This document shows, piece after piece, positions 3,530-59,480 of a stretch of DNA of 64,000 bases; within the stretch, counting starts at the first letter, position 1; each line of letters begins with the position of its first letter. The DNA lies in the NCBI RefSeq assembly GCF_024138125.1, contig NZ_CP099993.1, positions 1,240,001 to 1,304,000 on the forward strand, given 5' to 3'. Source of the DNA: Halorussus salilacus (GTDB lineage Archaea > Halobacteriota > Halobacteria > Halobacteriales > Haladaptataceae). The notes below the pieces were generated by a model, which searched no databases, was not told where the DNA came from, and worked only from the letters and a program-made list of their open reading frames with translations. Both the position numbers and the translations under genes were made by a program.

Positions 3530-4068
3530 GCTGACCCCTCCAGTTCCGCCAGCGGTTCGACCACGCGGAGGTCCTTGCGGTCGGCCACATCGCGGATCGC
3601 TGTCAGCGCCTCGCCGGTCGCGCCGGTCTCGGCCGCCAGCCGGAGGCGCGCGCTCGACTCGTCGGCGGTGCCGCCCGGTGCCGACAGCGACACGTCCACG
3701 ACCGAGGCGTCGGCGCTCGACTCGATGGACGACAGCGTCTCCGAGAGGTCGGTCTCGACGACGTGACCGACCAGCAGGACCGTCACCTCCTCGCTGTAGC
3801 GCTCGGCACCGGCCTGCATCACGTTGACGCCCGCCTCGCGCAGGCCCGAGACGATGGCGTCGAACCGGTCGGGCGGACATTCGAGGTCCACCTCGACCGG
3901 AATCCGTCCCCGGGGTGTGAGCGACCCGCGCTCGTGGAAGACCGACAGGAGGTTGCCGCCGTTGTCGGCGATGGGTTCGAGCGCCCGGAGGAGTTCGCCC
4001 GGTTCGTCCACCAGTTCGAGTCGGACCGTGTGCGCTCTGGGTTCGCCAGCGCTCGCGTCGTCGCTCAT
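3526..4068 (-). CDS. ACT-domain amino-acid-binding protein
   Basis: 180-residue acidic protein. Residues about 14-85 form an ACT domain (VRLELVDEPGELLRALEPI, then DNGGNLLSVFHERG), a fold that binds amino acids to regulate enzymes. The C-terminal half is a second alpha/beta region that may be another ligand-binding module. It overlaps hom by 4 bp, so a role in feedback control of homoserine dehydrogenase is a reasonable inference from the operon; nothing in the sequence shows direct binding. Confidence 0.9.
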   Translation of the reverse strand: MSDDASAGEPRAHTVRLELVDEPGELLRALEPIADNGGNLLSVFHERGSLTPRGRIPVEVDLECPPDRFDAIVSGLREAGVNVMQAGAERYSEEVTVLLVGHVVETDLSETLSSIESSADASVVDVSLSAPGGTADESSARLRLAAETGATGEALTAIRDVADRKDLRVVEPLAELEGSA

Positions 4069-4104
4069 CGTTGTGAGTTCTCACGCGCGGGCGGGCTTAA
4101 GGCT

Positions 4105-4263
4105 TCAGGCGACCCCAAATTTGGCCGCCCGTTCGCGGTCGGCCCGCACGACCGCCCAGACGCCAGCGGTGACGCCGACCAACAGGAACGAGACGAGGGC
4201 GGTTTAGAGGAACGAGACGAGGGGGTTCCATGGGGCCGTCTCGACGTATGCGAACGAGTCGCT
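4105..4263 (-). pseudogene. Remnant of a small membrane-protein gene broken by a 24-bp duplication
   Basis: One minus frame between fusA and the ACT gene reads FAYVETAPWNPLVSFL, then TAA, then TALVSFLLVGVTAGVWAVV (a good membrane helix), ending in a basic tail and TGA at 4105. The stop lies inside a duplicated segment: CTCGTCTCGTTCCT occurs twice, 24 bp apart, and removing one 24-bp copy restores a continuous frame. There is no ATG or GTG, because a TGA lies immediately upstream at 4264. I cannot name the family. It may be a decayed gene, or a sequencing error if the duplication is false. Confidence 0.4.
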
Positions 4264-4397
4264 TCAGTATACGCCACCTACGCGAGCCACAGGTCCGACC
4301 TGAACGAGAACGGGGAGGTGAGCGGTCGGCCGCGACGCCACTCGCTCTGCATCACATCGAAATGGAAACGTGAGAACCGACCGCGAGCGCGCGTCGA

Positions 4398-6584
4398 CTA
4401 GAAGTAGTCGATGGCCTCGGGCAGTTCGGTCTTCATGCCCTTGCGCTCGCGGATTTCGATGATGGTCTCGCGCTGGAGGTTGTCGGCCATGACCTCGAAC
4501 CCGGCGTTCTCGGTGTTCCACGACGCGCGACCCTCGGTCGCGCTACGGATGTCGCTGGAGAAGCCGATCATCTCGTCGACCGGCGCGATGCCCTCGACGA
4601 CCATGAGGTCGCCCTCCTGGTACATGTCGTCGACGCGGCCACGGCGGCCCTGAATCTCGCCGGACGCCGCGCCCATGTGGTCGTTGGGCACGTCGATGCG
4701 CACGTCCTGCATCGGTTCGAGCAGGCGAACTTCACCCTGCACGAGCGCGTTGTGGACCGCGTTGCGGACCGCGGGGATGACCTGCGCGGGACCGCGGTGG
4801 ATGGTGTCCTCGTGGAGCTTGGCGTCCTCCAGTCGGAGGAGCGTCCCCTGAACGGGCTCGCCAGCCAGCGGGCCGTCGTCGAGCGCCTCTTCGAGGCCCT
4901 CGATGACGAGCTCCATCGTCTCGTTGAGGTGCTGGATACCCTTCGTGTCGTCGATGAGGATGTTGGTCCCGTGGATGTGCTCGACGTTCTGGGACATGTC
5001 CTTCTCCATGCCCGCCTCCTGGAGCGCCTCGCGGCGCTCCTGCTCGGGCATGTCCATCGAGATGTCGCCCATCTTGATCTTCTCGATGATCTCCTCGGTC
5101 AGGGGCTGGGCCTGGATGTAGAACCGGTTGTGGCGGTTCGGCGAGATGCCCTCGATGACCTCGGTCATCTCCTGGATGGCCTCGCGGAACACCACGATGG
5201 GTTCACCGGTGTTGACCGGGATGCCCTGATTGCGCTCGATGCGCTGGGTGATGACTTCGAGGTGGAGCTCGCCCTGCCCGGAGATGAGGTGCTCGCCGGT
5301 GTCCTCGTTGATGGTGACCTGAATCGTGGGGTCCTCCTTCGAGACCTGCCGGAGCGTCTCGATGAGCTTCGGGAGGTCGTCCATGTTCTTGGCCTCGACC
5401 GACTTCGTGATGACCGGCTCGGAGATGTGCTCGATGGACTCGAACGGCGTCATCTCGACGCTGGACACCGTCGACCCCGCGATGGCGTCCTTCAGACCAG
5501 TGACGGCGGCGATGTTCCCGGCGGGGACGCGCTCGACTTCCTCGCGCTCGCCGCCCATGTAGATGCCGACGCTCTGGACGCGGTTCTTGCCCGCGGTCCC
5601 GGAGACGTACAGCTCTTGGCCCTTCTCCAGCGTGCCCGAGAAGACGCGACCCGCGGCGATCTCCCCGGCGTGGGGGTCGATGCCGATGTCGGTCACCATC
5701 AGGACGACCTCGCCGTCCTCGTCGACCAGACGCATCTGCTCGGCGAGCTCGGACTCGTCGTCGCCGCGCCAGATGCGCGGGATACGACGGGGCTGGGCCT
5801 CGATGGGGTCGGGGAAGTGCTCACAGACCATGTCGAGGACGACGTCCGACAGGGGCGTGCGCTCGTGGAGCTCCTGGCGCTTGTCGGCGCGTTCGAGCTC
5901 CATGATGTCGCCGAAGTCCATCCCGGTGCGCTGCATCGACGGCATCGAGACGCCCCACTTGTAGAGGGCCGACCCGAACCCGACCGTCCCGTCCTCGACG
6001 GAGACGGTCCAGTCGTCGATGTCGTCCATCTCCTCGGTCATGCCGCGGATCAGCTCGTTCACGTCGTCGATGACGTTGAGCAGACGCCGCTGCATCTCCT
6101 CGGGGCCCTCCTGCAGTTCGGAGATGAGGCGGTCGACCTTGTTGATGAACAGGGTGGGCTTGACGCCCTCACGGAGCGCCTGTCGGAGGACGGTCTCGGT
6201 CTGGGGCATCGCGCCCTCGACCGCGTCCACCACCACGAGCGCGCCGTCGACGGCGCGCATCGCGCGGGTCACGTCACCGCCGAAGTCGACGTGGCCCGGG
6301 GTGTCGATGAGGTTGATGAGGTGGTCGGTGTCCTCGTACTCGTGGGTCATCGAGACGTTCGCGGCGTCGATGGTGATGCCGCGCTCCTGCTCGTCCTCCT
6401 CGGTGTCCATCATCAACTGCGTCGCTTCGCCCTGGTCGGCGATCATGCCAGCACCGGCCAGGAGGTTGTCCGTCAGGGTCGTCTTGCCGTGGTCGACGTG
6501 TGCGGCGATTGCGATGTTCCGGATGTGCTCCGGCTCGTCCATCAATCGCTCGCACTGTTCGACGATCTTCTTTCGTCTACCCAT
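4398..6584 (-). CDS. fusA: Translation elongation factor EF-2
   Basis: 728-residue GTPase that drives ribosomal translocation. The P-loop [15 protein letters not shown] is near residue 27, DTPGHVDF near 94 and NKVDR near 148. Domains III-V follow, including the C-terminal region containing [12 protein letters not shown], whose later histidine site is modified to diphthamide in archaea (family knowledge). The ATG at 6584 ([10 protein letters not shown]) is used; the upstream in-frame extension to 6716 is unlike homologues and overlaps the divergent DUF5781 gene. Normal length for the family. Confidence 0.97.
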
Positions 6585-6714
6585 TATGGATGTTCTACCC
6601 GTAGGAAGTTGAAAAGCGTAGTGTTTCGAATCCGGCCAAACCGGCCGCAAGCCCTGTGAAACACTCACAACCAACGCAAGAGTCTTGTCCGACGAAGCCT
6701 TGCTAATCGTACGC

Positions 6715-7488
6715 ATGGATGTTCACGTCCACGAGCCCGGTCCGTCAGCGCCGTTTCTCCGCGCCCGCGACCTCTTCGAGACCGGCTACGACCTCGACCG
6801 GCCGGTCCACGTCCACGTCCGCGACAGCCCCGACGAGCGGACGTGGACCGCCCATCCCGAGGGCAGGCACGTCCTGAACATCTCCCGGCAGGCCGCCACC
6901 AGCGCGATGGCGCGCGAACTCGCCCTCCACGAGTACGCCCACATGGCGCGCCACGAGCAGGCCCATCCCTCCCACACCCAATCGACCGAGGAGGTCCTGT
7001 TCCTCGCGCTCTCGGGCACGTCGGTCGAGCGCAGGCGGGTGACCCACTGCTACCAGATCGCCAACCACATGAAGGACATCTACGCAGACGACATCACCCT
7101 CCGGGTCGGCCCGACCGACAAACTGGTGTCGTTCCTCGAATCCGAACTCGCGGCCGCGGTCGCCGACCGGCCCACGCCGAGACGCCACGGCCCGGCGGGC
7201 GACCGGGACGGTCTCCGCATCACCAGCACCGCCGACCCCGAGATGACCGCGGTCAACGCCGCGTTCGCGCTGGCGCTGGTCGAGCGCCACGGACTCGTCG
7301 ACGGGGACCACCGCCTCTACGACCTCGCGCACGCGGCGGCCGACGACGCGACCGACGTGGACCTGTGGGGGTTCAAGCGCCGGTTCGAGTCGCTGGGACC
7401 CGACCCCGACGAGAGCGAATACCGCCGCAACCTCGTGGACGCGGCCCGCGAGTACGCGGTTGGCGACCCCGGGCGGGCGGCCGATTAG
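6715..7488 (+). CDS. DUF5781-type protein with an HExxH motif
   Basis: 257-residue haloarchaeal protein matching what I recall as DUF5781, often found near the EF-2 gene. The segment [16 protein letters not shown] (about residues 75-90) contains HEYAH, a perfect HExxH zinc-metalloprotease motif, with further histidines next to it. No signal peptide or membrane segment, so a cytoplasmic enzyme is suggested; peptidase activity is inference. It is transcribed divergently from fusA and its last 4 bp overlap the end of the convergent PAP2 gene. The ATG at 6715 is used; an in-frame TTG at 6685 is possible. Confidence 0.8.
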
Positions 7489-49426: not shown

Positions 49427-49450
49427 ATGCCGCCTCCCGGATTTGAACCG
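49427..49450. other. attL: remnant of the tRNA-Phe 3' end
   Basis: Twenty-four bases starting ATGCCGCCTCCCGGATTTG are identical to 59406-59429, the 3' end of tRNA-Phe. The tRNA-derived match resumes as GGGGACAGCTCG near 49500, after a short insertion with two hairpins. Marks the left edge of the element. Confidence 0.85.
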
Positions 49451-49541
49451 CCGGAGAGCAAAGCTCTCCGAGCCCCCGCTCGCTTCGCTCGCGGGGACGG
49501 GGACAGCTCGTCCGACGCCCATGGGCGCTTCGGTGAACCCC

Positions 49542-50570
49542 ATGACGAAGGACCAACTCGAACCCATCTCGCCTGCTGAGGCGAAGAAGATGTACCTCAA
49601 TGCGCGCGAGCGCGAAGTATCGCAATCAACCCTCGACGGCTACCACTACCGACTCAAACACTTCATCCGATGGTGCGAGGACGTCGAGGGGATCGAGAAC
49701 ATGAATACCCTCTCCGGTCGGGACTTGCAGAGATTCAAAACGTGGCGTCGAGACGATGGAGACTTGAAACCCATCTCGCTTGAGGGACAACTCGACGCAC
49801 TCCGACTTTTCATCCGATGGTGTGGCTCTATCGATGCCGTCGAGACAGACCTTCACGAGAAGTTCGACGCTCTGATGCCGACACTCGACAAGACAGACGA
49901 GCAGAGCGAATCCATCCTCGATTCCGACCAAGCGGAGGCTCTACTCGAATACCAGCGGAAGTTCGAGTACGCGTCTCGTCCCCACGTCATCATCGAAATC
50001 CTGTGGCACACCGGGATTCGGCTCGGGGCACTTCACGCACTGGACGTAGACGACTACGACGAAGAGGCTGAGCGGCTTGCAATCCGCCATCGACCGAAGA
50101 AAGGGACACCACTCAAGAACGGGAAAGAAGGCGAGCGTATTGTCGCTCTGAACGCCGAGGTTTGCCGCTCAATCGAAGACTGGAGGGATAATCATCGCCA
50201 TGACGTGGAGGATGATTACGGCCGAGAGCCGCTTCTCACGAGCAGGAATGGGCGGATGAATCGGTCGAGCATTCGGGACGCGGTCTACAGGGTCACTCGA
50301 CCTTGCTATTATGGGGCTGATTGTCCCAAGGGACGGAATCCAGACGACTGTGAGGCGGGGTCTTATCCCGGATACAGCAAGTGTCCCGTCAACGTCTCGC
50401 CTCACGACATCCGTCGAGGCTCAATCACCTACTTTCTGACCGAAGACGTGCCCGAGAAGGTCGTTTCTGACCGGATGAACGTCGGACAGGACGTTCTGGA
50501 CAAGCACTACGACAAGCGAGACGAGGAGGTGAAGGTGGAACAACGGCGGGGCTATCTCAGCAATATCTAA
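49542..50570 (+). CDS. Tyrosine recombinase/integrase
   Basis: 342-residue phage-type integrase. The N-terminal SAM-like core-binding domain (about 15-115) precedes the catalytic domain with the first arginine in HTGIRLGALHALDVDD (about 167-182), PHDIRRGSITYFL (HxxR, about 286-298) and LDKHYDKR (nucleophilic tyrosine, about 322-329). The Cys-rich CPKGRNPDDC...CPVN insert is typical of haloarchaeal integrases. It lies next to attL. ATG at 49542 (MTKDQ); 49521 is possible. It should catalyse integration into the tRNA-Phe 3' end. Confidence 0.94.
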   Translation: MTKDQLEPISPAEAKKMYLNAREREVSQSTLDGYHYRLKHFIRWCEDVEGIENMNTLSGRDLQRFKTWRRDDGDLKPISLEGQLDALRLFIRWCGSIDAVETDLHEKFDALMPTLDKTDEQSESILDSDQAEALLEYQRKFEYASRPHVIIEILWHTGIRLGALHALDVDDYDEEAERLAIRHRPKKGTPLKNGKEGERIVALNAEVCRSIEDWRDNHRHDVEDDYGREPLLTSRNGRMNRSSIRDAVYRVTRPCYYGADCPKGRNPDDCEAGSYPGYSKCPVNVSPHDIRRGSITYFLTEDVPEKVVSDRMNVGQDVLDKHYDKRDEEVKVEQRRGYLSNI

Positions 50571-50630
50571 CTGTTCTACTTTCACTACCTCTCCATAAGC
50601 ATTTTTACGGGATGTATCGTTCGATGACAT

Positions 50631-50849
50631 ATGGGAAAAGCAATCACGAATCTCAAAATAATGGTACTTGCTCTCGTCGCTTCCTTCCTGATGTTGACCG
50701 TAGCAGGGTTTTGGAGTTACACAGGAGCAAGTGGTCCCATTGACGCTCTTGGGTCAATGCTCGGTTTACTCATCGAGTATCCCCGATTTGGTGGAATGTT
50801 GGTGATAGTCATCGGGTTTGTCGTTGTCGCAGATCGAATAGCAGGCTAA
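50631..50849 (+). CDS. Small two-helix membrane protein
   Basis: 72 residues with two hydrophobic segments (IMVLALVASFLMLTVAGFW, about 10-28, and FGGMLVIVIGFVVVAD, about 53-68). ATG at 50631, about 25 nt after CATTTTTACGG, implying a leaderless message. No family recognised; short membrane proteins next to integrases are common in haloarchaeal viruses and plasmids. Confidence 0.6.
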   Translation: MGKAITNLKIMVLALVASFLMLTVAGFWSYTGASGPIDALGSMLGLLIEYPRFGGMLVIVIGFVVVADRIAG

Positions 50850-50984
50850 CTTCCGATATAACAAACGGAGTTATGAGGACGAAAGCTGAAACCACCAAGA
50901 TTACGTCAACAGTAACGAAATAGCGTTTCCGCCAACTGTCACCGTAAGAAATATTATTTGATAGTGTACACGCCAGTATAACAT

Positions 50985-51674
50985 ATGGAAATCACCATTA
51001 CCTTAGACCATGGTCCTCTGAATGCAGAATTTACGGGTGAGGACCGAGAGGAACTTGAGGACAGCGTTCTCGGATTCGTTGAGTTTTTGGAACAAAATAA
51101 GGAGGTCTTTGATGGAACTTCTTTTTCAATAGAGCAGAATGGGGGAGACGAGAATCCAGGACTTGATGCAGAGTTTTGGGAAGAACAACAGGATGAAACT
51201 GAAGAATCAAACGGCGACGAAGGGTGGGATGTAGAAGTTAGCTACGGTTCCATCCCCACCCGAACGGGCCTTAATGAGGAAACGCTTAGTAGATACTTTG
51301 ACATTGACCCGGAAGGAGAGGAACCACCGTATTTGAATTTCGACCCAGAGATACTGGGAGAATCTGGGAATAGTCGAAGTGAGAAGCAAATGCGTAGCTC
51401 TCTGATTCTTATGACGCTTTGGCGCGAATGCAATGATATTGAAGCAGTTCGTTCTCCTGACCTCAAAGATGCAGTACGGATTTCGGGAGTTGACGATAAT
51501 GGTCTATTCAATATGTATCAGTTCAATAATGGGGAAGGAGATAGATATTTCCGCCGAGACGGGAGTGGAGCAAATACGGATATTAGTCTAACGCTACCTG
51601 GAGAACGAGAAGGATACGACCAAATCCAGAGAACGGTTGAACGACTGGAAGCGGAAGAGGAAGACAACACGTAA
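50985..51674 (+). CDS. Acidic hypothetical protein, first of a gene pair
   Basis: 229 residues, low GC. The N-terminus MEITITLDHGPLNAEFTG looks like a beta-hairpin start. An acidic spacer (EEQQDETEESNGDEGWD, about 66-82) leads to the region EVSYGSIPTRTGLNEETLSRYFDIDPEG (about 84-111) and a C-terminal DNGLFNMYQFNNGEGDRYFRRDGSG. I do not recognise it. Its stop touches the next gene's ATG (TAAATG), so the pair is co-translated. A TATA-like TATTATTTGATAG lies about 30 nt ahead of the ATG. Confidence 0.75.
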   Translation: MEITITLDHGPLNAEFTGEDREELEDSVLGFVEFLEQNKEVFDGTSFSIEQNGGDENPGLDAEFWEEQQDETEESNGDEGWDVEVSYGSIPTRTGLNEETLSRYFDIDPEGEEPPYLNFDPEILGESGNSRSEKQMRSSLILMTLWRECNDIEAVRSPDLKDAVRISGVDDNGLFNMYQFNNGEGDRYFRRDGSGANTDISLTLPGEREGYDQIQRTVERLEAEEEDNT

Positions 51675-52448
51675 ATGTCATTTGACCGTTTTTTGGAACA
51701 CTACGATAGCGACGCAGGACAGAAGGAACAAATTGGGCTGGCGATTTACTATCTTGAAGCTGAACAAGAGCAGGATGAAGCAAAGCAGGCAGACGTAAAG
51801 GACTTGATTCAACGCTCGCGATCATCTATCTCACCGTCAAGCGTTTCAACCTATTTCAGTCGCCTCCGAGAGACGGGTTGGATTACACCAACCGAAAACG
51901 AGGGATACCGATTGACACATACTGGAGAAGATGAGGTGGTAATGTTGCTTGATGACGAAGCACTTGGTAATCCCCGCAACGAAGGAGAGAGTTTCATTGA
52001 CTCGGAAGTAGTTGATGACGAACGGTACGAGAGACTAATCAAGGACATTAACGACTGCTATCGCTACCGCATCTACGATGGAACAATGGTCCTTACTCGC
52101 AAACTCTTCGAGGACATGGTCTTTGAGATCTTGAAAACGCACTATGCAGGTAGAGATGTGCAGATGTTCTATAATCAGGAAGACGATTGCCACTATTCAT
52201 TCAATGAACTACTCAACAAACTCAAGGACGGCGTTTCGACCTTACGACGCTACTCCCGGGAACTTGATGACGCCTTCGTAGAGGAAGTTCGTGAACTCAA
52301 AAATGCAGGTAACCGAGGTGCTCACTCAATCAGAGTCGATTTTACTGATGATGAAGTTGAGGAGTGGGCAAGCGATGCTACAAGGATGTTTGAGGTTCTC
52401 TACGATGTACTCCTTGGCGCTCGCATTGCAGATGAGCAGGGGAACTAA
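51675..52448 (+). CDS. Winged-helix + DUF4145/HEPN-like protein, second of pair
   Basis: 257 residues. An N-terminal helix-turn-helix-like region (SSISPSSVSTYFSRLRETGWITPTENEGYRLTHTGED, about 50-86) resembles a winged-helix reader. The C-terminal third has VREL-KNAGNRGAHSIR (about 207-222) and a last helix EEWASDATRMFEVLYDVL, which resemble DUF4145/HEPN proteins found in restriction and abortive-infection loci. The R/N...H motif is suggestive but unproven. Starts directly at the stop of the previous gene. Confidence 0.7.
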   Translation: MSFDRFLEHYDSDAGQKEQIGLAIYYLEAEQEQDEAKQADVKDLIQRSRSSISPSSVSTYFSRLRETGWITPTENEGYRLTHTGEDEVVMLLDDEALGNPRNEGESFIDSEVVDDERYERLIKDINDCYRYRIYDGTMVLTRKLFEDMVFEILKTHYAGRDVQMFYNQEDDCHYSFNELLNKLKDGVSTLRRYSRELDDAFVEEVRELKNAGNRGAHSIRVDFTDDEVEEWASDATRMFEVLYDVLLGARIADEQGN

Positions 52449-52583
52449 GCCTCGCTGACTCTCATTTCGCTCTCACGGCTCTTCATGCCGCTCTTAGGAG
52501 GTCCTCAAGGTAAGCAAAGGAGAACATTGGCAAGATATTATCTCTGCGCATATCGCAGTCTACTCGCTCTCACGAGAGATGGG

Positions 52584-52931
52584 CTATACGTCACTCTTTG
52601 GAGCACCTGGCCCCCACGAGTCGTCATGTCCGTCGGCAGACTCCATCTCGTCAATACTCGGTGGTGAATCAAAAGCAGGAACGCCAAACCCCCAGTCCAT
52701 CTCCTCCCAGTGAACCTCGATCTCCAAGTCCTCGGTCAACGTTCGGTGACGATGGGCATCGTCGCTGGCCTGACTTACGTGATTCCTGAGATGGCCAGGT
52801 TCACCGACAACCGTTCGACTACACCCGTCAATCGGACAGGTGTACACCTCGGGGCCGTCCGTCGAACCATCATCCCCGTCTCGGACCTTGCGAATCTGTT
52901 TGAGTTTATCACGGCTTTCGGTCTTACTCAT
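52584..52931 (-). CDS. C2H2-like zinc-finger protein
   Basis: 115 residues. CPIDGCSRTVVGEPGHLRNHVSQASDDAHRH (about 32-62) has the CxxxxC...H...H spacing of an atypical C2H2 finger; the rest is acidic with Trp-rich segments (WEEMDWGFG, DDSWGPG). It overlaps the helicase gene by 8 bp at its start and is the last gene of the leftward operon. It may bind DNA or act with the helicase (inference). Confidence 0.68.
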   Translation of the reverse strand: MSKTESRDKLKQIRKVRDGDDGSTDGPEVYTCPIDGCSRTVVGEPGHLRNHVSQASDDAHRHRTLTEDLEIEVHWEEMDWGFGVPAFDSPPSIDEMESADGHDDSWGPGAPKSDV

Positions 52932-54936
52932 GGGAGTTCCTCCGGGCTTGTTTCATCTGTTCATCGAACTTCCGCTCACGGGCACGATGCATCGTATCCC
53001 GCATCCAGTCAGGGTACCGACGTTCAGGAGGGAGTTCAAATGGGTCGCGACGGGGGATGACGCGGTCTGAGAATGGCCGAGATTCCCTTAAAGAATTCTT
53101 TAAGGAGTGTTCGGCCATTCTTGTAAGATCAACTCTACCCGCGATATTCAACGATTCAACCCCATTAGCGTGCCATTTAGTTCCTCGACCAGCACCGGTC
53201 TTTTCAGCTATGCCCTCCTCGCGGAGTCGGTTGAGTGAATCCATCGCCGTCGACTTCGACAAATCGGCCCGGCGTGCAATTTCTCGACCAGAAATACCGT
53301 CCTCGTTTTCGAGTACAGACAGGACTGCTCGATCACTGTCGTTGCGAAGATTGCCGTGAGGACAAGCATCGAATGATCCGCTTGGCGTTTCCCGACCGAT
53401 CTTCTTGGTTTCGAGCCAGTCAGGAACTAAGCCCGTGGCGATGTAGACTGTCGCTTCAGTGTCGTCTTTTCGACCAGCACGCATCGCCGCCTGAAATACG
53501 CCCCCACGACGATGCATATTGAGGATATCATCTGCGATTGGATTTCCGAGTGAGAGATTCATCCCCTGAGTTTCCTCTACCCGTTCAGCACTTTCGCCGA
53601 ATAGTGCCGTGAGATGCTGGTAGTAACTATCTCCCCGAGAGGGAGCGCCCAGCACTACCAGAAGCTGAGAGTCACCAATTTGGTTCTTCCCCCGGAGGGC
53701 ATCGTAATACAAGTCTTCATCCCAAAGATGATCGAGTCCTCTCTCTTCGAGTTGGTCTCGAATATCCTTGCCAGTTATCAGGTCCGGGCGTTTTCCGTGT
53801 TTTTGGTGAACTTCTCGAAGGTATGCCTCACATTTGGGAATGCTAAGGTTCCCTCCCTGTGCAGGCCATGCGTGGGAGTTCAGTTGGATGAACTCGTATC
53901 CTTTCTCGCGGAGGTATCGGTTACGCTCCTGCTCGCCGAATAGGCGATAGTGCTTGAAGTCCCCACCGAGAACTCGTCTCCACTTCGAGAGGCAAGGCGT
54001 AGCGTCGAGCCCGATGACCGCCTCTGCTCCTGAGAAGTCCGGTAAGTCGAAGAACCACATTGTCGGGGTACCATCATCGTGACCATCTCCGCTTGTCTCG
54101 TATAGTTTTTCGAAGACTGCCGTCCGGTCTCCGGGAAGTTCCGTGTATTTTAGACCGTTATCTAACTTTTTAGCCCCGTAGATAGCGTACGCGATGAGTG
54201 GGGCCTTTGCATGGAAGTCCCCTACTGAATCCCTGTGATCGGTTGGTTCAAGACCGATCTTTCCAAGTTCTTCTAATGCCTTTACTCGGTCATCTCCTTC
54301 GAGACGCCGTAGGCTATCGAAAGGGAAGTCATCAAGCGTATCGATGAACTCTTGCGCTTCCTTAGCCGGGTTTTCGATAACGGTATAGTATTCATCAAAG
54401 GCGTCTTCATCGAGGACGACAACGCGATTCTCGACGTATGCTGGGTTGTACGCCTGCACGAAATTTCCTACGAGGAGATCGAGACCGTCCGCGTCAATCT
54501 GAGTGACTCGTTCGCAGTATGGACAACTGTTCTCTCCCCGCTGGCATGGAAGATCGAACTCTCGATGAATCTCACCCGGTGACCAGCCGTTATTGCGAGC
54601 GTTTCGCGCTTCTTGAGCGACCGGGTCATCTCGATAGGAAGGATTCTCGTCTCGTAGCGTTGGGCAGAATTCTCGCTTCGGAAGTTTCTCAACCCCGACT
54701 CCGTCCTCCTTGCCCCAGTCCTCGAATTGGTCGTAGTTATCGGTCAGATTCGTGAGAACCGTGACCGGCATAGCATCGGCAACCTTCGGAATACTTCGTG
54801 ACTTTCCTATGCCGGGGAGAACATCGAACAGCGCGGTCTCTCCGTTGAGCGCAGCTTCCGTAATACCGTATTTCAGGACTTCTCGCGGAGGTTGCCGCCC
54901 GGTAGGTCTTTTACTTAGGGGCTTCTTTTTGCTCAT
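52924..54936 (-). CDS. Helicase-like protein with C-terminal winged helix
   Basis: 670 residues. Helicase-type motifs are ALFDVLPGIGKSRSIPKVAD (motif I, about 34-53), VVVLDEDAFDE (motif II, about 171-181), VIGLDATPCLSKW (motif III-like, about 306-318) and FQAAMRAGRKDDTEATVYIATG (motif VI-like, about 486-507). A winged helix follows (AVLSVLENEDGISGREIARRADLSKSTAMDSLNRL, about 546-580). It is probably the replication or unwinding protein of the element. It is preceded by an overlapping small frame; an internal Zn pair CPYC is present. Confidence 0.82.
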   Translation of the reverse strand: MSKKKPLSKRPTGRQPPREVLKYGITEAALNGETALFDVLPGIGKSRSIPKVADAMPVTVLTNLTDNYDQFEDWGKEDGVGVEKLPKREFCPTLRDENPSYRDDPVAQEARNARNNGWSPGEIHREFDLPCQRGENSCPYCERVTQIDADGLDLLVGNFVQAYNPAYVENRVVVLDEDAFDEYYTVIENPAKEAQEFIDTLDDFPFDSLRRLEGDDRVKALEELGKIGLEPTDHRDSVGDFHAKAPLIAYAIYGAKKLDNGLKYTELPGDRTAVFEKLYETSGDGHDDGTPTMWFFDLPDFSGAEAVIGLDATPCLSKWRRVLGGDFKHYRLFGEQERNRYLREKGYEFIQLNSHAWPAQGGNLSIPKCEAYLREVHQKHGKRPDLITGKDIRDQLEERGLDHLWDEDLYYDALRGKNQIGDSQLLVVLGAPSRGDSYYQHLTALFGESAERVEETQGMNLSLGNPIADDILNMHRRGGVFQAAMRAGRKDDTEATVYIATGLVPDWLETKKIGRETPSGSFDACPHGNLRNDSDRAVLSVLENEDGISGREIARRADLSKSTAMDSLNRLREEGIAEKTGAGRGTKWHANGVESLNIAGRVDLTRMAEHSLKNSLRESRPFSDRVIPRRDPFELPPERRYPDWMRDTMHRARERKFDEQMKQARRNSHE

Positions 54937-55081
54937 GTCGAAGGGCTCCCTCCTTCGGCGACTGGAACTTGGTTCCCTCCGAGTTCCGATGTACCACGTC
55001 GAGCCAACTTCGGATGGCGTCGGGTCCGTTCTGACCCACCCTGTTCGACAGTTCGTCGATTTGGGGGTTCCGAGTGCCCAC
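54911..55081 (-). CDS. Possible 56-residue protein overlapping the helicase start
   Basis: A GTG at 55081 opens a frame of balanced composition (starting VGTRNPQIDELSNRV, then a helix IRSWLDVVHR) that ends 26 bp inside the helicase gene. The competing ATG frame at about 55110 is arginine-rich and less likely. Its place between the RHH-like gene and the helicase in a leftward operon supports it, but no homologue comes to mind. Confidence 0.4.
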   Translation of the reverse strand: MGTRNPQIDELSNRVGQNGPDAIRSWLDVVHRNSEGTKFQSPKEGALRHEQKEAPK

Positions 55082-55119
55082 CTCGCCCCCTGTCCTTCGT
55101 TACGTTCATTGTCTTAGTC

Positions 55120-55251
55120 CTACTTGTCGGGATCCAACTCTTCGGCAGCTTTCTGCACGAACTCGTCCCACGTAACTCCGAGCTTTGCTTTGGTCACTCG
55201 GGCTTCATCACGGGTCGATTCCTCGGCAGGGATAATTGGCTTGGAAGCCAT
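55120..55251 (-). CDS. 43-residue ribbon-helix-helix-like protein
   Basis: Short gene that heads the leftward operon. ATG at 55251, about 26 nt after GTTTTATGGG (about 55277-55285), so leaderless. The pattern STRDEARVTKAKLGVTWDEFVQKAAEEL (about 12-39) matches the helix-turn-helix half of RHH proteins, lacking only the initial strand. Such proteins act as plasmid copy-number or autoregulators. Family placement is by pattern only. Confidence 0.55.
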   Translation of the reverse strand: MASKPIIPAEESTRDEARVTKAKLGVTWDEFVQKAAEELDPDK

Positions 55252-55626
55252 GTCAAAGGTTTAGAATTACTGACCCATAAAACGCCAAGTAAGTTATTAC
55301 GAATACGAAGTATGAAATTTATTCCCCGAAAGTGTACCGACTGAAACTGAGAATCTCATCGGAGTCAGTAGTAGCAATAGAAGCCGTTAGACCCCATCGC
55401 ATGAATTTGCCGTGAGCGGCTCCCTCTCGAATTTGAGGTTCTATCAGACCGATTCCTCTGCAAATGATGAGAAATTGATTGAGCGGCGCGAGAGCGGCTC
55501 CTATGAAGAGGTAAGAGGACACTTCTCGTCTAGAAACTCGATTTGGCCTTTAGAACCCCTGATTGTACGATATTCGGTCGAATTACCCGGTAACCTCTTT
55601 GGCGTATACGAGTATTCTCAAATGTA
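55252..55626. other. 375-bp divergent intergenic region of the element
   Basis: Between the leftward helicase operon and the rightward run. It has AT-rich stretches (TAAGTTATTACGAATACG near 55290) and a direct repeat GAGCGGCTCC at about 55414 and 55492. Divergent promoters must lie here; an origin of replication is possible. A GTG-started hydrophobic frame on the minus strand (55319-55522, 67 residues) is not well supported. Confidence 0.5.
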
Positions 55627-56187
55627 ATGTCAGAAAGACTGTCGAAGGCACAGAGGGAGAAGGTACAGGAACTGATTGACGAGCGGGTTGAGGATATCAG
55701 ACGCGCCGCCCTGAAACTCAAGATAGAACAACTGACAGGGGAAGTCCTTGGCGAACTCCATAACCGTGGTGTAGATACCGACCCCGAAGGCATCGATATG
55801 GTGGAGATAGCTCGGGAGTGCGTATTGGACGTGATGTTCGGAGATGAGACATCAGCAGAGACCATCGAGATTCCAGTCGGTGGTCGGCATAACCACGGCC
55901 ACACTACGGAAGTCACTCTGGAAACAGAGGATGCGCCGGAGACGTATCTTGAGGAAGTCCCCATCGAGGACGGAGAAGACCCCGAAACTGTAGAGGTCGA
56001 ACGAGTTGAGCCATCCGGTGACCCTCGACTGAACGGAGAACTCAGCTCCTCCGAGATAACCCGGGCTTTCCAAGAGGGACTAACTCCCGAGATGATTCTA
56101 GGGGACCGTCACACGAATGACGAGGATACGTCTGAAGAGCCGAACCCGGAAGATGTACCCAGAGCCGGACTACCGTGGTACCAGTAA
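55627..56187 (+). CDS. Hypothetical acidic protein of the element
   Basis: 186 residues. N-terminal helices AQREKVQELIDERVEDIRRAALKLKIEQLTGEVLGELHNRGVD (about 8-50) look coiled-coil-like, followed by acidic, proline-rich linkers (EEVPIEDGEDPETVEVERVEPSGDP) and a short helical end. No known domain. First gene of the rightward run; the ATG follows a TGTA.ATG context directly. Confidence 0.65.
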   Translation: MSERLSKAQREKVQELIDERVEDIRRAALKLKIEQLTGEVLGELHNRGVDTDPEGIDMVEIARECVLDVMFGDETSAETIEIPVGGRHNHGHTTEVTLETEDAPETYLEEVPIEDGEDPETVEVERVEPSGDPRLNGELSSSEITRAFQEGLTPEMILGDRHTNDEDTSEEPNPEDVPRAGLPWYQ

Positions 56188-56189
56188 CA

Positions 56190-56396
56190 ATGAGTACGAG
56201 TGATTCCCTCAACGCGACGCCCAAAGACGCAGATCGGGTAGTGAAGATGGAGACGAACAGGGTCTACAATCCCGTCGTGAGTACAGAAGAGGTCGCCGAA
56301 GAACTTGGGATTGGTACGGAAGAGACGTTCGAGCTACTCGAAGAAGCCCCAAGACCCTCAGGAAAGCAAGTTGGGGATACTCACGTCTGGTGGTAA
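56190..56396 (+). CDS. Hypothetical protein with a helix-turn-helix-like segment
   Basis: 68 residues, ATG two nt after the previous stop. VVSTEEVAEELGIGTEETFELLEEAP (about 29-54) reads like an HTH with a recognition-type helix, suggesting a small DNA-binding protein. It ends THVWW. No family assigned. Confidence 0.55.
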   Translation: MSTSDSLNATPKDADRVVKMETNRVYNPVVSTEEVAEELGIGTEETFELLEEAPRPSGKQVGDTHVWW

Positions 56397-56485
56397 TAGG
56401 GATACAGAAAAGGGTCAAGAACGATGGAAATTGGACCTAATCCCTCTCGTCATCACCACACGTCCGAATCTCTCCAATCAATCCT

Positions 56486-57037
56486 ATGACGGACGATATC
56501 TGTGGCGCGACGAACCGTCACGGTGAACCCTGCCAGCAACCTGCTGGATGGGGAACCGACCACGTCGGAAAGGGTCGGTGCAAACTGCATGGTGGTAATG
56601 CAGGTGCGCCAGCGGATAATCAGAACGCCTCCAAACACGGGCTCAACGCTGACCTGCATCACTACTACCGGGACCTCCCACCTGAACAGAAGGAGTTCAT
56701 CGAGAAGATTGCCGCGACAATCGAGGATCGAGTTCGAGAGAACACGGGAACAGTCGACTATATGGACCGGGTCTTGTCCAAACAAGTGGCGATTCAACTC
56801 CACATCTCCTCGAAGGCGTCGGCATACATAGAGAAGGAGTCGGGGCTGGTTCAGGACGTTCCTGCAAGAGGTTCGACTCGCAAGGAAGCGGCTCCACTCC
56901 TCGAAGAGGTTCGTCGATACGATGACTCGATATTCAGAAATCTCAAGAAACTCGGTGTTCTCGACGACCCCGATTCACAGAAAGCTGATGCACTGGAATC
57001 TTGGCGCGATTTCATCGAGAAGAGCTACGATTCGTGA
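56486..57037 (+). CDS. HGG-motif, terminase-small-subunit-like protein
   Basis: 183 residues. CGATNRHGEPCQQPAGWGTDHVGKGRCKLHGGNAGAP (about 6-42) is the Cys/His cluster followed by CKLHGG, seen in small terminase-like and HGGxSTG proteins of phages and their parasites. The rest is helical. If it acts as a terminase small subunit, the element would carry DNA-packaging functions, yet no large terminase is present. ATG at 56486. Confidence 0.7.
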   Translation: MTDDICGATNRHGEPCQQPAGWGTDHVGKGRCKLHGGNAGAPADNQNASKHGLNADLHHYYRDLPPEQKEFIEKIAATIEDRVRENTGTVDYMDRVLSKQVAIQLHISSKASAYIEKESGLVQDVPARGSTRKEAAPLLEEVRRYDDSIFRNLKKLGVLDDPDSQKADALESWRDFIEKSYDS

Positions 57038-57478
57038 GCCGCCGTGAACGAGGTCCTATGCGATTTTTCGATTCATCAGGTTCATTCCTCTGCTCCAGAT
57101 AACAATTGGCAAATGACGGCAGATATAGCCGTCTCTGCGAAAGTGGGTGTCAGAAGGTGGACTTGAAACGTGACCCCCGGTCCCTTTCGTGCCTCGACGC
57201 ACCTCGGTCATGGACGGGATATCCTCTTTAGCCCAACCCCCCGTTTTCGAAATACGGCGCAATAGTATTCAGAGTATCAAAATCTTCCGGAGAATGCTCG
57301 TAAGAGGGATCTGTGCCGGAGAGGTCAATTCCCTAATGAGATAGCAGTGAGGCTGGTTCACAGGTAGGTGAATGATCCTTACTGGAGCCTCACCGAGTTC
57401 AGGTGTGACCCCGTAATGGAGATAGGGAACATATTCAGAAGAGAAAGAATTGTAAATCTACCAAAGGTGGTGGCGAGT
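57038..57478. other. 441-bp region without a supported gene
   Basis: No reliable coding frame. A minus-strand frame (57056-57262) has low support. TGTAAATCTACC (about 57450-57461) is the probable promoter of the pentapeptide-repeat gene. No other sites are evident. Confidence 0.55.
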
Positions 57479-58618
57479 ATGGAAAGTTCACCCTCTGACC
57501 GATGTTGTTACACATGGCCAGAGGACCATGCAGTTGATGATCGACCTAATCAACAGAGTTCGTGCTGGCGGAAGGCGTATTCCGAAGAAGCAGACCATTG
57601 TCTCTGGCATGCAAACCCGAATAGTGTGTCAAAGTCTGCTGAAGAACTCAGGGTTGTTTGCTCGGATACCGAGGTCCGGGAACAGTGTTCAGGATACTCC
57701 GAGTTACTTGACGGAGCCAAGCTATCGGGTGTAAATCTCGAAGATTCCCTTTCATTTACAAACGTCGCGTTGCGAGACGCGGTTCTTCCGGGGTCGAATC
57801 TCTCCGGAGTGGTCCTAAAGGATGCGGATCTCACTGACGCAGTTCTTTGGGATGCTGATCTTTCTAACGCAAATCTTTCAAAAGCGGACCTTTCCGACGC
57901 AGATCTTCGGGATATAGACCTTTCCGATGCAAACCTATCAAATTCCGACCTCTCTGACGCAGATCTTCTGGATGCTGATCTCTCTAATGCTTCACTCAGA
58001 GGTGCAACTCTCACCGGTGCAGACATTCGGGAAGCAGATATCACGGGAGTATCCGTAACCGGAGCGACGACTTGCAAGCGTCTATTTGAGGGGTATGATG
58101 GTGAGATATCGACTGAAGATAGTTTCATACCAATGCGTCTCCGGAAGTGGCACTTCGGCTCAAACTTCGGACCTAGAGAATGGGAATCAACTGCACGAGC
58201 TTACCATGAGCTCAAATCCATATTAAGTGATCATGGATTAGTGGGTCAGTCTAGAGACATATATGTGAGGGAACGCCGGGCCCGTAGCCTTGAAGCGAAG
58301 GCTGATGGGGGTTCCCTGAATCTCAGGTATTGTGGTTCGCTTCTCTCTCAACTCTTTACCGGATACGGTGTTAAAGTTCGAAACCTCTTGGGTTGGATGG
58401 TAGCGTTATTTCTCTTTTCGACATCGATTTACGTTATCGCGGGTGTTGAGGAGAGTCTCATGAGGAATATTTCCTACAGTGTTCTTGCCTTCACGGTTGC
58501 TCCTCCAAAGATTCCTTCAGGTACTGGAGTACAATTTGTCATGATGATAGAAACGTTCTTTGGAACACTTTCGATAGTGCTATTAGGTTACATCCTTGGC
58601 AACCGAGAACGGTTTTGA
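57479..58618 (+). CDS. Pentapeptide-repeat protein fused to an ion-channel-like domain
   Basis: 379 residues. An N-terminal Cys-rich CCYTWP...CLWH domain is followed by about fifteen pentapeptide repeats, A(D/N)LSx type (about residues 85-195), forming a right-handed quadrilateral helix, then two membrane helices with a pore-like TVAPPKIPSGTG segment (about 340-379). Such fusions resemble potassium-channel-like haloarchaeal proteins. The ATG at 57479 is leaderless (TATA at 57450); a GTG at 57368 would add 37 residues. It may depolarise the membrane when triggered, but this is inference. Confidence 0.8.
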   Translation: MESSPSDRCCYTWPEDHAVDDRPNQQSSCWRKAYSEEADHCLWHANPNSVSKSAEELRVVCSDTEVREQCSGYSELLDGAKLSGVNLEDSLSFTNVALRDAVLPGSNLSGVVLKDADLTDAVLWDADLSNANLSKADLSDADLRDIDLSDANLSNSDLSDADLLDADLSNASLRGATLTGADIREADITGVSVTGATTCKRLFEGYDGEISTEDSFIPMRLRKWHFGSNFGPREWESTARAYHELKSILSDHGLVGQSRDIYVRERRARSLEAKADGGSLNLRYCGSLLSQLFTGYGVKVRNLLGWMVALFLFSTSIYVIAGVEESLMRNISYSVLAFTVAPPKIPSGTGVQFVMMIETFFGTLSIVLLGYILGNRERF

Positions 58619-58667
58619 TAGTTGCAGAGAGGCAAGGTTCTCGAAGAGGCACCCAAAATTGGAGCTA

Positions 58668-59081
58668 CTATGGCCAGTCAACCTCATCTGCGTTTTCTTG
58701 TCCGGGATATGGAGGCCAACGGCCGTGTTCATTTGGGCCGTATTCTTCTGGACGAGCTATCTCTGACCGCTCTCGTACAACTCGGTCAGTAACTTTAATC
58801 GCTACGTCATTACGCTTGTGGACTCCAAATACTCGTTCGTCTTGGTATTGGAATTCCCAATACTGGTGGTCGTCGAGGAAGATTAACCCTGGTTCCTTGC
58901 AACCAGGTCGTCCGCAGGTCGCGGCCGTATCGGGATATCCGATAGGTTTGACGGCCGCGATGTAGGTGTACCCATCCTTCCGTTCCTGCGGCCCCCCACC
59001 GTGAACGTGCCCATTACAGCGACTGAGCATAGAAAGGAGGTCAATCCCCTTCCCTATAAAGAAGCTTCTCGACGCCGTCAT
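58668..59081 (-). CDS. Hypothetical protein, last gene of the element
   Basis: 137 residues on the minus strand. CGRPGCKEPGLIFLDDHQYWEFQYQDERVFGVHKRND (about 61-97) contains a CxxxxC pair and aromatic-rich strands; the N-terminal part has CNGHVHGGG. No family recognised. An ATG at 59030 is an alternative start (87 bp shorter frame from CNGH); a TTTAATCTTA box at about 59091-59101 serves either. Confidence 0.55.
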   Translation of the reverse strand: MTASRSFFIGKGIDLLSMLSRCNGHVHGGGPQERKDGYTYIAAVKPIGYPDTAATCGRPGCKEPGLIFLDDHQYWEFQYQDERVFGVHKRNDVAIKVTDRVVRERSEIARPEEYGPNEHGRWPPYPGQENADEVDWP

Positions 59082-59406
59082 TAGTAGGAGATAAGATTAA
59101 ACCAGGCTATTCCCTTGTCCCATTCAGGAATTCGGTCTCAAGCGCAGTCAGCCGCCTTAGAATTTGATTCAGAGCGATTGGGAAGCCATGGAGCTTCAAG
59201 AATCTCGAATATCGTCGTGTCACGGTCTGCGTGTACCGTGTACGGGAGCACGAGTAATTACAAGGGCCTCGCAATTCAATTGAGAGCGAAGCGCCCGAAG
59301 ACGTTAGGGCGCGAGCTAAACCATGGTCAAATCTCAGGGCGGTTTTCGGAAGATAATGGCCGGAAGGCGTTGCTGGCTGGTGAATGAGGACCGAGTAAAT
59401 TTCGGA
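59082..59406. other. 325-bp region, nothing convincing
   Basis: Between the last gene of the element and tRNA-Phe. Frames on both strands overlap the tRNA or lack starts. The promoter of the minus gene at 58668 sits at its left edge. Confidence 0.55.
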
Positions 59407-59429
59407 TGCCGCCTCCCGGATTTGAACCG
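59406..59429. other. attR within tRNA-Phe
   Basis: The 24 bp identical to 49427-49450, covering the T-arm and acceptor 3' strand of tRNA-Phe. The tRNA stays intact after integration. Confidence 0.85.
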
Positions 59430-59480
59430 GGGACAGCTCGATCTTCAGTCGAGTGCTCTCCCAGTCTGAGCTAAGGCGGC
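59407..59480 (-). tRNA. tRNA-Phe (GAA)
   Basis: 74-nt cloverleaf on the minus strand. Acceptor GCCGCCT/AGGCGGC with discriminator A; D arm TAGCTCAGACTGGGAGAGC; anticodon stem CTCGA/TCGAG with loop CTGAAGA and anticodon GAA (Phe); T arm CCCCGGTTCAAATCCGGG. No intron, CCA not encoded. Its 3' end is the integration site of the adjacent element. Confidence 0.97.

Follow-up and report, generated by a model that had tools for sequence, protein, structure and literature searches.

Two abutting genes on a roughly 10 kb element in the genome of Halorussus salilacus, which we call A and B, are best read as a two-component defence cassette of the abortive-infection type carried by an SNJ2-integrase element. 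This is a predicted function, to which we assign a probability of roughly 0.55. Our best reading of the sequences makes A the sensor, specificity or restraint component and B the effector. The window, that is, the whole stretch of DNA analysed, spans 64,000 nucleotides (contig NZ_CP099993.1, positions 1,240,001 to 1,304,000, forward strand), and coordinates without a locus label refer to it.

The A-B gene pair

The pair and its parts lie as follows:

50947..50963, + strand: AT-rich TATA-like stretch, 22-38 bp before the ATG of A, read from the sequence
50985..51674, + strand: gene A, 229 aa (ATG 50985, TAA 51674)
50985..51119, + strand: N-terminal domain of A (residues 1-45), conserved at 76% identity to the L057 homologue
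51090..51674, + strand: exchangeable region of A, its C-terminal domain (in a sliding DNA comparison with L057, identity drops over about 51090-51680 only)
51675..52448, + strand: gene B, 257 aa (ATG 51675, TAA 52448)
51675..51980, + strand: winged-helix domain of B, residues 1-98 (AlphaFold model, fold search)
51984..52445, + strand: DUF4145/HEPN-like helical domain of B, residues ~105-257 (sequence motifs, relatives)

The first-pass annotation had described A and B as fused end to start. The stop of A and the start of B are indeed contiguous as TAAATG, but these are two abutting genes rather than a fusion. Compared to the nearest relative pair, on contig JARUKX010000074 of a Haloarculaceae archaeon (locus L056), pS is 0.74 and pN 0.19 for A, and pS is 0.79 and pN 0.19 for B, with the differences in both genes concentrated at third codon positions. 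Because synonymous differences are near saturation while pN is 0.19 in both, A and B are evidently translated and under purifying selection. The TATA-like stretch before A is consistent with one leaderless A-B transcript. A is acidic, as had been noted, and acidic proteins are ordinary for haloarchaea.

The element that carries A-B

The surrounding element comprises these features:

49427..49450, + strand: attL, 24 bp that duplicate the 3' end of tRNA-Phe, an exact direct repeat
49542..50570, + strand: tyrosine integrase of the SNJ2 type, next to the A-B cassette on its upstream side
50631..50849, + strand: small membrane-protein ORF of 72 aa, an insertion between the integrase and A
56486-57037: terminase-small-subunit-like gene (phrog_9231, 1e-20)
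57368-58618: pentapeptide-repeat protein of the element
59406..59429, + strand: attR, 24 bp identical to 49427-49450, situated at the tRNA-Phe 3' end
59407-59480, minus strand: tRNA-Phe

The integrase matches Pfam Phage_integrase (6e-12) and is 44% identical to the SNJ2 integrase and up to 46% to that of HHPV4, over its length. GC content is 45-55% between the att repeats and 61-75% in most flanking host bins. In a genome of the same genus (L188), the left flank and tRNA-Phe lie ~0.4 kb apart with no element between them. Together, the integrase, the tRNA-Phe repeat, the drop in GC and the element-free site place A and B inside an integrated element of ~10 kb, which bears out the earlier assignment to a mobile element; with an SNJ2-family integrase and an att repeat at a tRNA 3' end, it belongs to the SNJ2-type integrase elements. 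An SNJ2-type integrase lies upstream of A-B in L056 and L057 as well, and the 72-aa membrane-type ORF is not at this position in either.

We recognised no capsid or large-terminase gene within the element (49427-59429), which also encodes a 670-aa protein with a winged helix and, from its sequence, a Walker-type GIGKS motif. With an integrase, a replication-type protein and the terminase-like gene, it has the look of a PICI-like satellite of a tailed halovirus. Its pentapeptide-repeat protein has a hydrophobic C-terminal end, and a similarly described pentapeptide protein is found near the SNJ2-type integrase of the pleolipovirus HarHp1 (MW344767). Close to the tRNA in L188 (1284-1311) and in other genomes of the genus, additional short stretches repeat the 3' end of tRNA-Phe; their presence in other species suggests that the tRNA-Phe site is a repeated integration hotspot.

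Protein B joins a winged helix to a HEPN-like domain

The AlphaFold model of B is confident at residues about 8-98, where it forms the winged helix that had been annotated, of the MarR/DtxR/PadR type (Z about 10-11). Equally good fold matches are found to many DNA-binding families, including the centromere-binding protein AspA, and the AspA match is therefore not specific. The first-pass annotation had named a replication or partition fold as the result that would speak against its proposal, and B did not turn out to have one. The remainder of B (residues ~105-257) is modelled as helical at low confidence, with helices at 116-130, 134-157, 199-216 and 225-254 and pLDDT <50 at 158-221. Every match in the fold search with the B model fell on the winged helix and none was informative for the HEPN half, and searching the sequences of solved structures with the HEPN-like domain gave no match. 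Structure prediction, which had been suggested as a check, thus gave a confident winged helix for B, but a low-confidence HEPN half and a poor model of A.

Against Pfam DUF4145 (PF13643), B scores 14.7 bits, below the cut-off of 23.1. Among 30 relatives of its HEPN-like domain, two match DUF4145 at E<=0.05 (best 1.7e-5) and one matches HEPN_Cthe2314 (1.1e-3). R142, K143, E146, A216 and H217 are invariant across these relatives and N126 is nearly so; the motifs in B read R142-x3-E146 and K209-x3-N213-x2-A216-H217. The spacings [K/R]-x3-N-x3-H and R-x3-E are those of haloarchaeal proteins that pass the DUF4145 cut-off, with Lys for Arg in some B proteins. In a profile comparison of the B domain with haloarchaeal DUF4145 the motifs align, at a statistically weak level (E 0.033, probability 1.5%). 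The canonical motif of active HEPN RNases, Rx4-6H, is absent from B, which has [KR]x7H instead, and residue H-5 is Gly or Ala in 11/11 full-length homologues. The HEPN/DUF4145 likeness that had been proposed thus stands as a distant similarity only, stronger in relatives than in B. As a family statement, calling the second half of B HEPN-like is well founded in sequence; its role as an RNA-cutting domain is putative, if probable.

The two halves of B recur in other conflict proteins

A search with the B profile returned two proteins in which the winged helix is retained and the C-terminal part is a TIR domain (L172 and L173), and a search with the winged helix alone returned a further such fusion (L212), so that three other genomes encode one. 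The TIR parts of L172 and L173 resemble the solved NADase AbTIR (E = 2e-37 for L172, 1e-33 for L173). Kinship with B is seen by BLASTP for L172 (2e-5 against window B) and by hhalign for the winged helix of L173 (97%, the L173 winged helix lying outside that profile). Ten of the 13 strong matches to the B winged helix carry a HEPN domain and three a TIR domain. The L172 gene sits between PglZ (6.6e-20) and BrxL (3e-219) of a BREX locus, and no A-like partner was found alongside the winged-helix-TIR relatives. The HEPN-like domain, for its part, is preceded by AbiJ_NTD5 in 12/30 relatives (best 1.3e-8) and elsewhere by a zinc ribbon (DUF2321) or other N-termini. The TIR exchange and these varied N-termini indicate that both halves of B circulate among conflict proteins.

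Several further arrangements were noted. A protein of ~304 aa with a distant HEPN-like domain is present in many sampled genomes of one genus of the same phylum, outside the class of the window (L155-L165), and may have a housekeeping role in that branch. A two-gene pair (326 and ~640 aa) repeatedly lies beside an AbiJ_NTD5-HEPN protein (L085/L090, L098, L099). Trios of winged-helix genes (~130 aa each) accompany an XPB-like (ERCC3/RAD25) helicase or a HerA-type ATPase at L064, L071, L072, L104, L176 and L059; they sometimes adjoin A-type genes, one trio member carries the winged helix of B, and at L104 another member is fused to the HEPN-like domain. The trios with their helicase or ATPase look like a separate uncharacterised conflict module. 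At L104, the XPB-like helicase (3654-6986) is interrupted by an intein that bears a LAGLIDADG homing endonuclease.

Protein A and the exchange of its C-terminal domain

A has no informative match in Pfam, PHROGs, NCBIfam or PADLOC. Its structure model is of low confidence (pLDDT 42), too poor for a fold search, and shows a beta-beta-alpha unit followed by helical/winged elements. Together with the alignment, the model points to a probable layout of a short beta-beta-alpha N-terminal domain (~1-45), an acidic linker of low conservation and a C-terminal winged helix (~130-229). In this layout, a G-x-G-(P/A)-S-A-T-x-x-L-x-x-P-G-like stretch, which is conserved, would close the C-terminal domain.

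Between the window and L057, identity is 89% for the integrase, 72% for the B winged helix, 62% for the B HEPN-like domain and 76% for residues 1-45 of A, whereas the rest of A, its C-terminal part, is only 25% identical. The comparison of L056 with L057 gives the same pattern. At the DNA level, identity to L057 is 35-47% within the exchange block only and returns to 55-78% in B, so that homology flanks the block on both sides. The C-terminal domain of the L057 protein is nearer to that of L072 (40%) than to that of the window (25%). These comparisons argue that the C-terminus of A is replaced as a domain between close relatives, in one clear case. Domain replacement is seen in the specificity parts of defence systems.

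Conservation of the pair across haloarchaea

We found B-like proteins in 33/391 Halobacteria genomes, full-length in ten including the window; an eleventh full-length locus is L084 (Halorubrum sp. CBA1125). For the A family, a threshold of E<=0.01 gives 23/391 genomes of this class, with strong matches in about 18. The genes in relatives were predicted with a simple gene caller. The 11 loci with a full-length B come from diverse haloarchaea, and in eight of them A immediately precedes B in the same orientation, at a distance of -4 to +3 bp (the window, L056, L057, L058 with A broken into two ORFs, L060, L062, L063 and L084), and this arrangement is kept down to ~30% B identity. At L064, A is near B but not adjacent, and no A was detected at L059 and L061. 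By genome, A is present in 8/10 with B and in 10/381 others (Fisher p = 1.5e-10), or in 15/381 others if weak A matches are counted (p = 1.6e-9). A also occurs without B at at least seven other loci, several of them beside integrases. Since A is found without B, and B without A at two loci, neither gene is strictly dependent on the other.

At L065-L070 and L073, A-type genes without B lie on related elements or islands, where their partner is a divergent gene of ~187 aa whose product starts '...WDELTPARRRV...'. At L065 and L070, the A gene adjoins an SNJ2-type integrase that is 85-90% identical. No relatives of A or B were found in viral contigs and phage records.

Defence neighbourhoods

GmrSD is encoded beside the A-B pair in L058, and a PLD nuclease and HSDR_N beside that in L084; near other family members we found TIR (L092), ThsB (L093), HKD-Snf2 (L098) and HerA (L059). 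The two nearest genes on each side of family members (123 proteins) matched 151 PADLOC models at 1e-8, counts being of models rather than independent genes. Genes 5.5-10 kb away (113 proteins) matched 124 models; being defence-rich as well, they failed as a neutral control, and random loci were taken instead. There, 123 genes of related haloarchaeal genomes matched nine models, mostly promiscuous ones. Most loci in this test belong to AbiJ_NTD5-type or other HEPN-like relatives rather than to A-B pairs. Because of this, and because the models are not independent, the signal is a strong one at the level of the domain family but no more than indicative where the pair is concerned. The co-occurrence with defence genes that the first-pass annotation had suggested looking for is therefore seen for the family (151 vs 9) and indicated for A-B. 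A PADLOC scan of A-B-family proteins gave no known component; the best match of B to a PADLOC model was 0.0057, not a strong one, and A had none.

A predicted defence function and its alternatives

In the working that we propose, a single transcript would yield both A and B, and the two would cooperate by way of B and the conserved N-terminal domain of A. The exchange in A suggests that its winged-helix-like C-terminus may recognise invader DNA, a DNA-bound complex or a protein; alternatively, this domain could restrain B until an invader is recognised. The winged helix of B would tie the complex to DNA or to A. Once activated, B would cleave RNA through its HEPN-like domain and stop growth or translation, a step suggested by the domain family and the TIR replacement, and the arrest may limit rival viruses or elements.

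The defence reading draws on the A-B operon, the HEPN/TIR exchange, the AbiJ_NTD5 fusions, the defence-rich neighbourhoods and the swap in A. We also count in its favour the position of the cassette beside the integrase of a mobile element, as prophages and satellites carry defence hotspots at such places (PMC9122126). Counted against it are the absent Rx4-6H, the DUF4145 score below cut-off, the weak profile comparison, the low-confidence HEPN model, the occurrence of A without B and of B without A, the lack of a known PADLOC component and a neighbourhood signal that comes mostly from AbiJ_NTD5-type relatives. The earlier suggestion of a defence-like module in which a sensor controls an RNase-like effector accordingly gains from the operon, the effector exchange, the AbiJ_NTD5 fusions, the neighbourhoods and the swap in A, but its RNase part lacks the canonical motif and a confident model.

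The main rival is that A-B maintains the element as a toxin-antitoxin pair, with A as antitoxin and autorepressor and B as a HEPN-type toxin, so that a host from which the element is lost dies or is arrested. This reading shares much of the defence evidence: the putative antitoxin gene is upstream and the ORFs abut, A is small, acidic and probably a winged-helix protein, the pair is on a mobile element, and HEPN toxins are common in such pairs (PMC3710099, PMC7641770). The counter-points bear on its simple form, and we consider it unlikely. B stands without detectable A at L059 and L061, A without B at at least seven other loci, and the winged-helix-TIR relatives without an A-like partner; A matches no Pfam or NCBIfam antitoxin, and exchange of its C-terminus while B is kept is less expected of a simple antitoxin.

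Two other readings seem to us improbable, each to a similar degree. A and B could be proteins that assist or regulate the SNJ2-type integrase or the gene control of the element itself, like SNJ2 Orf2 and Orf3: the pair adjoins the integrase in the window and at L056 and L057, A does so by itself at L065 and L070, and the SNJ2 integrase is aided by two small proteins, one of them MarR-like (PMC8371274). However, A and B (229 and 257 aa, downstream of the integrase) show no sequence relation to Orf2 and Orf3 (111 and 140 aa, upstream of int), and there is no SNJ2-type integrase among the nearest genes of A-B in L060, L062 and L084, while L063 has another integrase. The missing relation and these pairs make such a role unlikely, and a HEPN/TIR effector would make no sense in it. 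The pair might instead regulate transcription, with the second half of B a catalytically dead HEPN-like domain that binds RNA or protein. Both proteins are of winged-helix type, the canonical Rx4-6H is absent, and inactive regulatory HEPN domains such as MtlR are known (PMC3710099). Yet across 30 diverse relatives His217, Ala216, Arg142, Lys143 and Glu146 never vary and Asn126 hardly does, the conservation that a site would show, haloarchaeal DUF4145 proteins have the same motif spacing, and replacement by TIR points to an effector.

Returning to the defence reading, it is tempting to speculate that A-B is one form of a modular haloarchaeal immune architecture, made up of A-type proteins whose recognition domain can be exchanged, effectors in which a winged helix carries HEPN or TIR interchangeably, and related small winged-helix trios with an XPB-like helicase; SNJ2-type satellite-like elements would use it against competing viruses. 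This wider reading is tentative and more doubtful than the function predicted for the pair. If true, it would amount to an undescribed immune architecture, with such elements armed against competing viruses. With its HEPN/TIR effector swap and swapped partner domain, the A-B pair is a concrete, clonable candidate in tractable hosts, and it may offer a view of how small mobile elements reshuffle the parts that recognise and the parts that kill.

Comparison with known systems

As far as we searched the open-access literature, the A-B pair was not found. In placement, it resembles the defence hotspots of P2/P4-type prophages and satellites (PMC9122126), in that a small element carries a small variable cassette at a set position next to its integrase; here the element is archaeal and SNJ2-type, and the comparison extends over a handful of elements. 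The same integrase family is found in the SNJ2 integrase operon (Orf1-Orf3), but A and B differ from Orf2 and Orf3 in sequence, size and position, and were rejected as their counterparts when BLASTP and hhalign gave no significant match. BREX and Thoeris touch the family through relatives, a winged-helix-TIR protein between PglZ and BrxL and an AbiJ_NTD5-type protein near a ThsB gene; the A-B pair itself has no component of either. It resembles HEPN-MNT toxin-antitoxin systems in that two genes abut and one of them encodes a HEPN-type domain, but differs in order and domains, and A has no nucleotidyltransferase (MNT) match in Pfam, NCBIfam or PADLOC.

Among DUF4145 HEPN domains (PF13643; for example in R-M proteins and BxaP), haloarchaeal members share with B the R-x3-E helix motif and the [R/K]-x3-N-x3-H spacing. 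B differs in scoring below the Pfam cut-off, in having no zinc ribbon, REase or helicase fusion and, in the window, in having Lys for Arg. The AbiJ-type systems (AbiJ_NTD + HEPN) offer a HEPN-like domain of recognisably the same family, in haloarchaeal AbiJ_NTD5 proteins, and a proposed growth-arrest effector. B is not an AbiJ_NTD-HEPN fusion, having a winged helix in place of the AbiJ N-terminal domain, and it has a dedicated upstream partner in A. A regulated HEPN or TIR suicide effector is a known principle; within PADLOC and the open-access literature searched, a two-gene arrangement that couples a winged-helix-HEPN-like protein to a partner with domain swapping appears to be undescribed.
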